Shown piece after piece: positions 9,501-12,500 of a DNA stretch of 64,000 bases; position 1 is the first letter of the stretch, and every line of letters starts with the position of its first letter. The notes under the pieces were generated by a model, which was given only the letters and a program-made list of their open reading frames with translations, was not told the origin of the DNA and made no database searches. The stretch spans positions 26,966,501 to 27,030,500 of the forward strand of contig NC_092672.1 of the NCBI RefSeq assembly GCF_964355755.1. The letters run 5' to 3'. The translations under genes were made by a program, and so were the position numbers. This stretch comes from Antedon mediterranea. Taxonomy: Eukaryota; Echinodermata; Crinoidea; Comatulida; Antedonidae.

Positions 9501-12500
9501 TTAGCAAGGTCCTATCATATATTATAAATAATTAAAGAATCTGAGAAAATCAATGAATCAAAATATCTTTTAAAAATCAATTATCTTTATTTAAATCAAT
9601 GCATATAACCTATAATTCGTCATAGTGACGAATTAAATCTAGTTTATTTTAAAGTTGTATAAAAAGGGAATGTAGAAACAAATGATTATATTAAAGTCTA
9701 GTGTCTGTTTATATGGTTGTAGAATTGAAATTATTATTATTTAATTATGTTATTATAATGATCAGTTCAATGAAAGATAAAGAAAGCTTCAATTCTACCA
9801 TTAATTTTAGATTGTTTTCTATCTACCCGCCTATGCAGCTTTTTGATTTATAATTTTATTGACATGTAAAAATGTGCATGCAAATATTCTTGTTGAAGAA
9901 ATGAAATGGGACGATCCCACACAAGATGTGAAAAATCAATATTTGATGAATTATTACCAAAAAATTCACAGTTGATCCCTTTATGACCTTGAGGGCATTG
10001 ACACTGATATCCAATTCCACTGTAAGGCTTTATACATGTCCCACCGCTTGAACACGGAATTGACATACAAGAATCTGTAAAAAGCAAATCATTATCCTAT
10101 TATCATTTTATTACAGGTGCTTCTCTTCTTAAAGACAAAAAAATGTGTCAGCTTGGCTGTTGCAAGGTATTTGAAATCTTGATCCAGATGTACTGTACTA
10201 ATTTAGCATTTTCAGTATTTGATTCATGTTGAGATTGTGTGTACTTACCATGTTGAAAACATCTTGATGCAAATTTACCAGAGAGAGCAATTGTCTAAAT
10301 GTACTTACCAAACTGAATATACCTAGAGGTCCAGATGTACCAAACAGACAGAGAGAATTGCCTATATGTACTTGCCATACTGAAGACATCTAGGTCCAGA
10401 TGTACCAGAGACAAGGAGCAATTGACTAAATGTACTTACCATACTGAAGATACCTAGAGGTCCAGATGTACCAGAGACAGGGAGAATTTCCTAAATGTGC
10501 TTACCATACTGAAGACACCTGGGTCCAGATTTACCAGAGACAGGGAGGAATTTCCTAAATGTGCTTACCATACTGAAGACACATGGGTCCAGATTTACCA
10601 GAGACAATGAGCAATCGACTATTTGTAATTTGTACCATATTGAAGACTCTACCAAAGGCAAGTAGCAATTTACTGAATGTGCTCACCATACTGAAGATGA
10701 CCAATGTCCAGATATACCAAAGGCAAGTAGCAATTTACTGAATGTACTCACCATACTGAAGATGTCCAATGTCCAGATATACCAAAGGCAAGTAGCAATT
10801 TACTGAATGTACTCACCATACTGAAGATGTCCAATGTCCAGATTTACCAAAGGCAAGTAGCAATTTACTGAATGTACTCACCATACTGAAGATGTCCAAT
10901 GTCCAGATTTACCAAAGGCAAGGAGCAATTGACTTAATGTACTCACCATACTAAAGATGACCAATGTCCAGATTCACCAAAGGCAAGTAGCATTTGACTT
11001 AATGTACTTACCTTACTGAAAACATATAGGTCCAGATTTATTAAAGACGATGATCAATTGACTAAATGTACTTACCATACTGAAGACATCTAGGTCCAGA
11101 TGTACCAATTTGGCATTTGCAGTAGATATTTGAACCATACTGAGATGTAAAGCATGTAGAACCACCATTACATGGGTTTGAGCTACAGGGATCTACAAAG
11201 AAACACGGTGAGTTTGTGTATTTAAAGCATATAAACTTTATAAGTTGTTCAACCTTTGATTTCATTTTATATATTTGTCATTTATAGGTATTCTGTTTTT
11301 ACAAAGCACCACACCTACACTACTACCAAGTACAAACGATATTCTGTGGATGCTCGTAAACATATGAGCACATACAGAAAGATATTAGGCTAGTTAAAAT
11401 TATGAAAGGTTGATATTTGCTTGCTTAGCACAAGTTAGGTTGGAGTTTTTTCACCAAAATACAATACATAATATACAATACATAATATACAATATTTTAC
11501 CATTAATTTCACAGTGCATGCCATTGAAACCGGGTTGACATCCGCAGTAATATTCGTTTGAGACAGATCCTCTGTAACACGATCCAGAATTTAAACAAGG
11601 GGATGACAGACATGGGTCTGATTCTGAAAGGTAAGAAATAAAAAACTAATATTTTCTGTGTAATAATATTTAAAATTATTGACTCCTTTATGGATGGTTT
11701 ATTTACTGCACATATGAGCAATGGCAATTAATATGAGATTGTTGGTTTATTTGTTTATATATTCTAGGATAGGAGATTTTCAATACACAGCTCTTCCCTA
11801 AACCCACCAAGAGCCCAATAAGCTTGTACGTAATAAAACATCTTCACAACTATCATGATTTAGTTTAATTAACACAGACATTGACTAATTTATAATGATA
11901 TGCCAGAGCCGATACAAGTTACTCTGATGAATATTGATTGGATTGAATCTGAGTGAAGTGCCTAGGATAAAAAGGAATGCAAGAACTAGAAATGACTTAC
12001 TTTCCAATTGACAGTGATCACCGGTGTGAATTCCAGAACATAAGCAATAATAACCGCTACCACCATGCTTTTTATAACAAGTACCTCCATTAAAACAAGG
12101 AGTGTCCATACAGGTTTCTGTTAGAAATGTAGAAGTTGGCAGTGTGAACTAGAGTTAGGAAATAGCAAACAATGGTTTGGACTGACAGTATTAGCGGTTA
12201 TTAGCATAATACTTTAGAGAATACAGCATGAACAGGCAATAAAATTTACCAAACAATGGTTCCACAGTTTGATGTGGTAGTAAACGCTAATAGACGTAAG
12301 CTACGTTTGGTAGTGTGAACAGGCATTTTATGGACATGAGCAGAAGTTAAACATTAATTTTATACATTATTGTGATTACCAACAATGTAATCTGGCAGTA
12401 AATGCCGATTTGTATTAGCAACTTTTATGAATGTGAACCGGGATTAAGACTTACCTACGGGGGTTTCACATTTTGGTCCGGCAAAACCTAATGGGCATAA

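Follow-up and report, generated by a model that had tools for sequence, protein, structure and literature searches.

Choice among equal 5′ splice sites has been studied mostly with artificial duplications; in the globin genes, tandem donor duplications were engineered in 1983-1986, so that consecutive identical 5′ splice sites competed. While those were laboratory constructs, the arrays described here offer 6-23 natural sites per locus. In human CBS, a natural 31-bp VNTR alters splicing.

Donor-spanning arrays are a kind already known in human genes. In ABCA7, a 25-bp VNTR in intron 18 includes the exon 18 donor and ranges from ~12 to 427 copies; both its length polymorphism and RNA have been measured (PMC5954066). 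The second donor, with one unit retained out of frame, accounts for 2 ± 1%, and unit retention is unchanged with VNTR length; longer VNTRs are associated with reduced expression and increased exon 19 skipping, the latter reaching 45 ± 10% in one brain region (PMC5954066). Like the array reported here, the ABCA7 VNTR starts at the exon's real donor, its first two bases being the canonical GT, and supplies one donor per unit; unlike it, the 25-bp ABCA7 unit runs from the GT, whereas here a 64-65-bp unit, seen in one assembly, also copies ~30 coding bases. The CBS VNTR, c.1444_1467+7(16_21), occurs where exon 13 meets intron 13, in 16-21 copies, and, by its name, has a unit made of the last 24 coding and the first 7 intron bases (PMC2630376); it is also treated in PMC1395315, and activity is lower with higher repeat numbers (as cited in PMC5188458). 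Its exon-end-plus-donor unit gives it the same layout as the array here, but it is shorter, 31 bp throughout, and polymorphic in people. CBS 844ins68, in which an exon/intron junction is duplicated once in tandem and which in this respect resembles the present array, is tolerated because splicing strongly favors one copy (PMC2630376). Finally, the minisatellite of human IFI6 (6-16) has multiple splice donors (Turri et al. 1995 as cited; PMC4526556), and its downstream units are used, encoding different isoforms (PMC4526556). Downstream repeat units carry donors in both cases, serving as alternative donors in IFI6; yet the IFI6 units encode isoforms, while all distal donors here lead to stops. 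The remark in a preliminary description of this DNA that tandem copies of a splice donor are rarely described is thus fair, although ABCA7, CBS and IFI6 show that the kind is known. No account of several exon-end arrays in one genome was found in the literature searched, most subscription papers lying outside it.

How does the present locus compare? It lies in the window, a 64,000-nucleotide stretch of Antedon mediterranea DNA (C3:26966501-27030500 in a 354-Mb genome of 18 contigs) with Pfam EGF, CUB and F5/8C domains, where an EGF-like exon is followed by a long array of copies of its own end. This array is probably a nearly neutral donor-spanning minisatellite, whose first donor is productive and whose distal donors, when used, are unproductive. 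Our verdict is that the origin is ordinary, a tandem duplication that expanded as a minisatellite, and that the place is unusual.

An exon end repeated into its own intron

The window holds a run of EGF-like modules on the minus strand, from ~14.4 to 3.4 kb. Exon 11192-11076 of this run matches Pfam EGF (PF00008) with 26.6 bits (cut-off 21.5) and precedes a 1001-nt intron, which lies between the exon end at 11076 and the next EGF exon, starting from 10074. A minisatellite occupies 11110-10218 (-): it consists of 14 units, mostly 64-65 bp long, the exon end being the first, and each unit contains the last ~30 bases of the exon, the 5′ splice site, and adjoining intron (Table 1). Between the real donor and the far end of the last unit, 858 of the 1001 intron bases belong to the array; by eye, an eroded half-unit without a recognizable donor follows at ~10205-10170. 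With Tandem Repeats Finder, a 65-bp period is detected over 10650-11108 (7.1 copies, 90% match), along with 130/195-bp multiples of the unit over 10285-11108. The 65-bp period and head-to-tail arrangement are those of a minisatellite, i.e., tandem copies of a 10-100-bp unit, and the features of a donor-spanning VNTR are present as well: the 5′ splice site of the exon lies within the unit, and it is with this exon that the array begins.

The donor positions, taken from the aligned units, begin with 11075, the first intron base. Thirteen lie downstream of it, 12 with GT and one with GC (10375); GTRAGY is intact at 11/13, and 10635 (GTACAA) is a degenerate GT. The preliminary description had counted a dozen distal donors, eleven of them GT; both totals are one higher.

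Homology between the exon end and the units is close. An alignment of the two had been set beforehand as the check on the claim that the array is built from the exon end, its 5′ splice site and intron, and it confirms this claim: the segment from -30 to +10 around the donor matches the unit at 10375 in 39/40 positions, the sole difference turning GT into GC, and other units in 36/40 (10504) or 35/40 (11011 and 10568), far above the window background, in which the best match outside the array on either strand is 25/40. At least 24/40 matches occur at 14 places on both strands of the window, the query included: 11 in the array and three elsewhere. Among 47 EGF exons compared in this way within 3 kb, the others reach at most 27/40 with copies of their own ends, except for one duplicated pair (40/40). 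That pair, 33770-33871 and 34817-34918 (+), has a 1047-bp spacing with identical exon ends and donors. Because units differ from one another by 0-50%, assembly stutter is argued against.

Other repeats and EGF exons deserve a brief mention. A 43-bp minisatellite (41436-42082; 15 copies, 97% match) lies between two plus-strand EGF modules, and a coding, mucin-like Thr/Pro/Lys-rich repeat of the TTKKP type (3783-4298, minus strand; 27/57 bp) adjoins an EGF module. On another contig, G000:C2:13707379-13777788 contains many equal-scoring EGF exons at ~2-kb spacing and looks like a recently amplified EGF region.

Table 1. The exon-end array and its neighbors in the window (window coordinates), followed by the further exon-end arrays (contig and Mb)
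Feature	Position	Strand	Properties
EGF-like exon, 117 nt, phase 1 at both ends	11076..11192	-	frame and acceptor tttctttgtag
Real 5′ splice site, atg/GTAAGT (donor 11075)	11070..11078	-	PWM 10.9, U1 -10.5 kcal/mol
In-frame TAG	11062..11064	-	reached whenever reading continues beyond the real donor
Unit D1, donor aag/GTAAGT at 11011	10982..11046	-	U1 -12.0 kcal/mol
Units D2-D6, GTGAGT/GTGAGC donors at 10946, 10881, 10816, 10751, 10686	10678..10981	-	0-11% pairwise difference
Degenerate unit D7, donor GTACAA at 10635	10604..10677	-	PWM 3.46, U1 -4.1 kcal/mol
Units D8, D9, donors GTAAGC at 10568, 10504	10475..10603	-	unit alignment
Units D10 (GTAAGT at 10439), D11 (GCAAGT at 10375)	10344..10474	-	D11 closest to exon end over -30..+10
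Units D12, D13, donors at 10308, 10248	10218..10343	-	unit alignment
Next EGF exon	9958..10074	-	acceptor ttttacag
eIF3L	C1:18.596 Mb		14 identical donors; 29/55-bp units
DHX8	C1:17.776 Mb		22 donors including the real one; 37-bp units
L018	C3:18.140 Mb		23 donors; 17-bp units
L020, mitoguardin-like	C4:35.201 Mb		6 donors; 55-bp units
L026	C4:29.026 Mb		6 donors; 61-bp units
L029	C9:22.599 Mb		7 donors; ~51-bp units

Competing donors and the reading frame

The donors were scored with a position weight matrix (PWM) derived from 47 EGF exon donors of the window and by U1 duplex energies. By PWM, 10/13 distal donors reach at least the 25th percentile of the EGF exon donors in the window, so that the distal units offer donors of real strength, as expected of a donor-spanning VNTR; sites of such strength occur in the window at ~1.3 per kb per strand. 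U1 pairing equals or exceeds that of the real site at 8/13, and the very first decoy, 11011, is stronger than 11075 (Table 1). Judged by both scores, most distal donors look strong enough to compete. RNA structure that would hide the decoys was considered and rejected: in local folding, accessibility is 0.005 at the real donor as compared to 0.000-0.131 at the decoys, with a region median of 0.007.

Where would use of a distal donor lead? The in-frame TAG starts at the 12th intron base and is present in all 13 extended exons, each of which contains 3-15 stops; among the 14 donors, 11075 alone gives an exon that reads on, in frame, into the next EGF exon. In this gene, it is thus only the reading frame that points to the first donor as the productive one. 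The suggestion that a distal donor may add coding sequence, in other words that distal donors lengthen the protein, draws support only from the intact donors downstream, and it fails: since every extended exon contains the TAG, protein addition by simple donor extension is excluded, and the in-frame isoforms of the IFI6 type are absent, with stops in 13/13. Splicing around the TAG would hardly help, because scores range from -4.7 to 0.9 for the repeated AGs able to bypass it and reach 2.35 (10294) for the best of the other AGs listed within the array, as compared to a median of 10.7 for exon acceptors (35 of 44, kept by pyrimidine score); a better AG, at 6.7 (10127), lies beyond the array. Longer protein has, accordingly, next to no chance of being the array's product.

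The same weak AGs bear on another idea, that each unit, reading ttcag/TATG/gtragt, provides a 4-nt microexon or a step in recursive intron removal. An AG does precede the donor by 4 nt in 12/14 units, the exon end included. These AGs, however, score at most 0.9, far below the exon acceptors (median 10.7); inclusion of 4 nt would throw the reading frame off; these sites lack the strong AG/GT of recursive splicing; and the motif is merely the copied exon end. The idea is very improbable, and internal acceptors, microexons and recursive splicing were rejected, the acceptors being too weak.

Unit history and selection on the donors

The units differ in age. D3 and D4 are identical, and D5 is one base off, within the D2-D6 sub-family; D8 and D9 form a pair 8% apart; D7 and D13 are the most diverged, by up to 48-50%. 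Over the whole unit, D10 (10%) and D12 (12%) are closest to the exon end; over 40 bases around the donor, D11 is. By these distances, the center of the array is recent and its ends more diverged; turnover in the middle is the usual minisatellite picture. Among the best candidates scored genome-wide, unit matches fall only at this locus, both as patterns (12/12, with at most two mismatches) and as DNA (7/7), and a mobile or dispersed element was rejected on these grounds. No close paralog lacking the array was found: the best-scoring other EGF exon is 46% identical, and its 3.1-kb locus contains no tandem repeats.

How could such an array arise and stay? A tandem duplication would have captured the last ~30 bases of the EGF exon, the 5′ splice site and ~30 intron bases; unequal exchange or slippage would then have expanded it to 13 downstream copies, which now make up most of the 1001-bp intron. 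The array would persist as a nearly harmless passenger, with the exon-proximal donor at 11075 staying productive, while distal donor use would run into the stop at the 12th added base, yielding only RNA for decay or truncated protein. Well over 90% of the 5′-side junctions would be expected at 11075, with a few percent unproductive and distal, and copy number should have a mild effect at most. The duplication mechanism, the near-neutrality and the actual donor usage are what we infer, whereas the anatomy, homology, donor strength, stop codon and recurrence are shown, as is, through protein homology, the productivity of the first donor in eIF3L and DHX8. The minisatellite reading itself draws on the homology between exon end and units, the recent center and diverged edges, the restriction of the unit to one locus, the in-frame TAG, the recurrence of such arrays and the first-donor products of eIF3L and DHX8 described below, the lack of a genome-wide excess of the loosest donor motif, and the low, length-independent unit retention in ABCA7. 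Counting against it are the less-changed donor columns and the better-kept donor strength, both treated below, and the excess of the stricter CAGGTRAGT motif over its reversed control. A by-product of slippage is, correspondingly, the best supported of the three readings offered in the preliminary description, given the recent center and more diverged ends, the locus-only unit, the commonness of tandem arrays in this genome and six more exon-end arrays. At its donors, the array most likely works as ABCA7 does, with the first donor used and the distal donors causing a small unproductive leak. The ABCA7 array is not harmless, so the present one may also affect the exon that follows.

The remaining reading is that of a splice-site decoy or rheostat: the array would bind U1 at many sites and divert pre-mRNA, and copy number would tune output. 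Such a role is unlikely, although several observations speak for it. The distal donors are strong by PWM (10/13) and U1 (8/13), use of any of the 13 gives a stop, and longer ABCA7 VNTRs go with lower expression and more next-exon skipping (PMC5954066). Furthermore, the donor columns vary less than the rest of the unit: with D7 included, changes per column are 0.78 in the donor vs. 1.41 on the exon side and 1.83 on the intron side, and permutation gives P = 0.033 for the nine donor columns and 0.019 for the five core columns; another version of the test, with D7 left out, gave P = 0.06-0.08. Also with D7 left out, donor strength is kept above that of reassigned column patterns (P = 0.013, scattered; 0.067, contiguous), as scored with a PWM from 44 of the 47 donors, i.e., without two doubtful picks and the real donor 11075. 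On the other hand, GT retention by itself (11/12 units, D7 left out) is ordinary under reassigned patterns (P = 0.22-0.34), and the most conserved nine-column window lies toward the exon, starting 8-9 bases ahead of the donor. The center of the array is recent, so the conservation need not be long-term; all selection tests leave out the eroded partial copy beyond 10218; and, in ABCA7, unit retention did not rise with array length (PMC5954066). The less-changed donor columns hint at either selection or homogenization around the donor, and donor-specific conservation is suggestive, not decisive.

Further exon-end arrays in the genome

Is this array a peculiarity of one gene? Genome searches for a donor motif in three spaced copies returned counts of overlapping places rather than arrays. 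The loosest motif, GGTRAGY, shows no genome-wide excess (2617 places vs. 2868 for the reversed pattern); the stricter CAGGTRAGT exceeds its control, at 105 places vs. 21 reversed, while AAGGTRAGT does not, at 91 vs. 1450. Among the matches listed, 23 donor-motif arrays were taken: nine for GGTRAGY, all on contig 1 and not counting the isolated C1:1185726; seven for CAGGTRAGT, which take up nearly all of its 105 places; and seven for AAGGTRAGT. Six of the 23 abut an exon and are made of copies of its end or donor (Table 1), which argues for a repeat accident and not for a feature of one gene. Together with the window, this limited search gives seven exon-end array loci with 5 to 22 downstream competitors each, some of which share the real site's 9-base donor. 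At all seven, the stop that closes the exon frame begins no more than 30 nt past the first donor.

Two of these genes were named by protein match: one encodes eIF3L and the other, at G000:C1:17774900-17778200, the spliceosomal helicase DHX8. The 58-nt eIF3L exon (1315-1372 of G000:C1:18594600-18597600) is directly followed by 13 further identical donors. The first-donor products align without gaps to the solved eIF3L (7.5e-47) and DHX8 (3.1e-35) chains; because these chains are conserved, the first of 14 donors in eIF3L and the first of 22 in DHX8 is the one needed for normal protein. Yet all 13 competitors in eIF3L, and 14/21 in DHX8, pair with U1 at least as strongly as the first donor. Donor-by-donor stop tests covered the window (13/13 stops) and eIF3L, in which 12/13 distal donors lead to a stop and splicing from the second one shifts the frame but meets no stop within the short segment covered.

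The other four loci are less well defined. L020 resembles mitoguardin with 23.3 bits, below the 25-bit cut-off; its exon alone matches designed TPR proteins, with no stretch passing on its own. By eye, a second minisatellite with a ~60-bp unit is present at this locus (~2080-1130, minus strand), in the intron before the mitoguardin-like exon. At L018, L026 and L029, the exon is recognized from an acceptor, an open frame and a donor only; for these three, Pfam gave nothing at E 1, and the best PDB matches did not go beyond E 0.38 (one search at E 0.1). CFAP54, considered as a candidate for L029, was unsupported by the PDB search at E 0.1.

Tandem arrays with donor motifs are common in this genome. 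For 14 of the other 17, no convincing exon was seen by eye at the 5′ edge, and one (L012) may lie just inside an intron; at L009, L010 and L015, the array continues beyond the stretch examined, with its 5′ edge outside. L015/L040 (G000:C1:19362000-19368300), L009 and L010 are satellite-like arrays of 68-bp and 66-bp units, kilobases long, and their units carry GGTAAGT or GGCAAGT.

A broader proposal would make exon-end minisatellites a recurrent class in this genome, reaching even eIF3L and DHX8 and tolerated because the spliceosome of this lineage would commit to the exon-proximal donor regardless of what follows; copy number would set, heritably, the level of unproductive splicing, and weak selection would keep the array donors functional. 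Taken as a whole, this proposal is rather unlikely. What makes the arrays interesting is that they recur and that they amount to a natural experiment in how a 5′ splice site is chosen: one genome provides seven natural tests, and in two genes protein conservation dictates the splice. Near-exclusive use of the first donor in RNA would count, in this animal, against models based simply on downstream preference or on strength only; otherwise, repeat copy number would be a source of expression variation, as in ABCA7.

Do acceptors form similar arrays? The acceptor motif TTTTTNCAG, taken three times, occurs at 87 places vs. 33 for its reversed control, and in 10 arrays listed no exon-start copies were seen (0/10). 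In comparison, exon-end arrays make up 5/14 of the CAG/AAG donor arrays (one-sided Fisher P = 0.047) and 6/23 of all donor-motif arrays (P = 0.091). This asymmetry is what would favor the view that donors are hotspots, transcription- or splicing-coupled breaks or R-loops promoting duplication of exon ends. Several considerations make such donor-triggered instability highly improbable: the acceptor control is weak, since TTTTTNCAG is less specific for real acceptors and also exceeds its own reversed control; selective loss of acceptor arrays would yield the same asymmetry; and, by a rough estimate from base composition, most CAGGTRAGT sites are probably real donors anyway. The comparison, with its weak motif control, hints at a greater tolerance for arrays of donors than for arrays of acceptors. 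Three acceptor-motif arrays (L032, L034 and L039) are located upstream of plausible exons. In L039 (G000:C3:5322800-5325000), a T-rich array of repeated TTTTACAG stands directly before the acceptor of a cysteine-rich exon: it is a repeated polypyrimidine tract.
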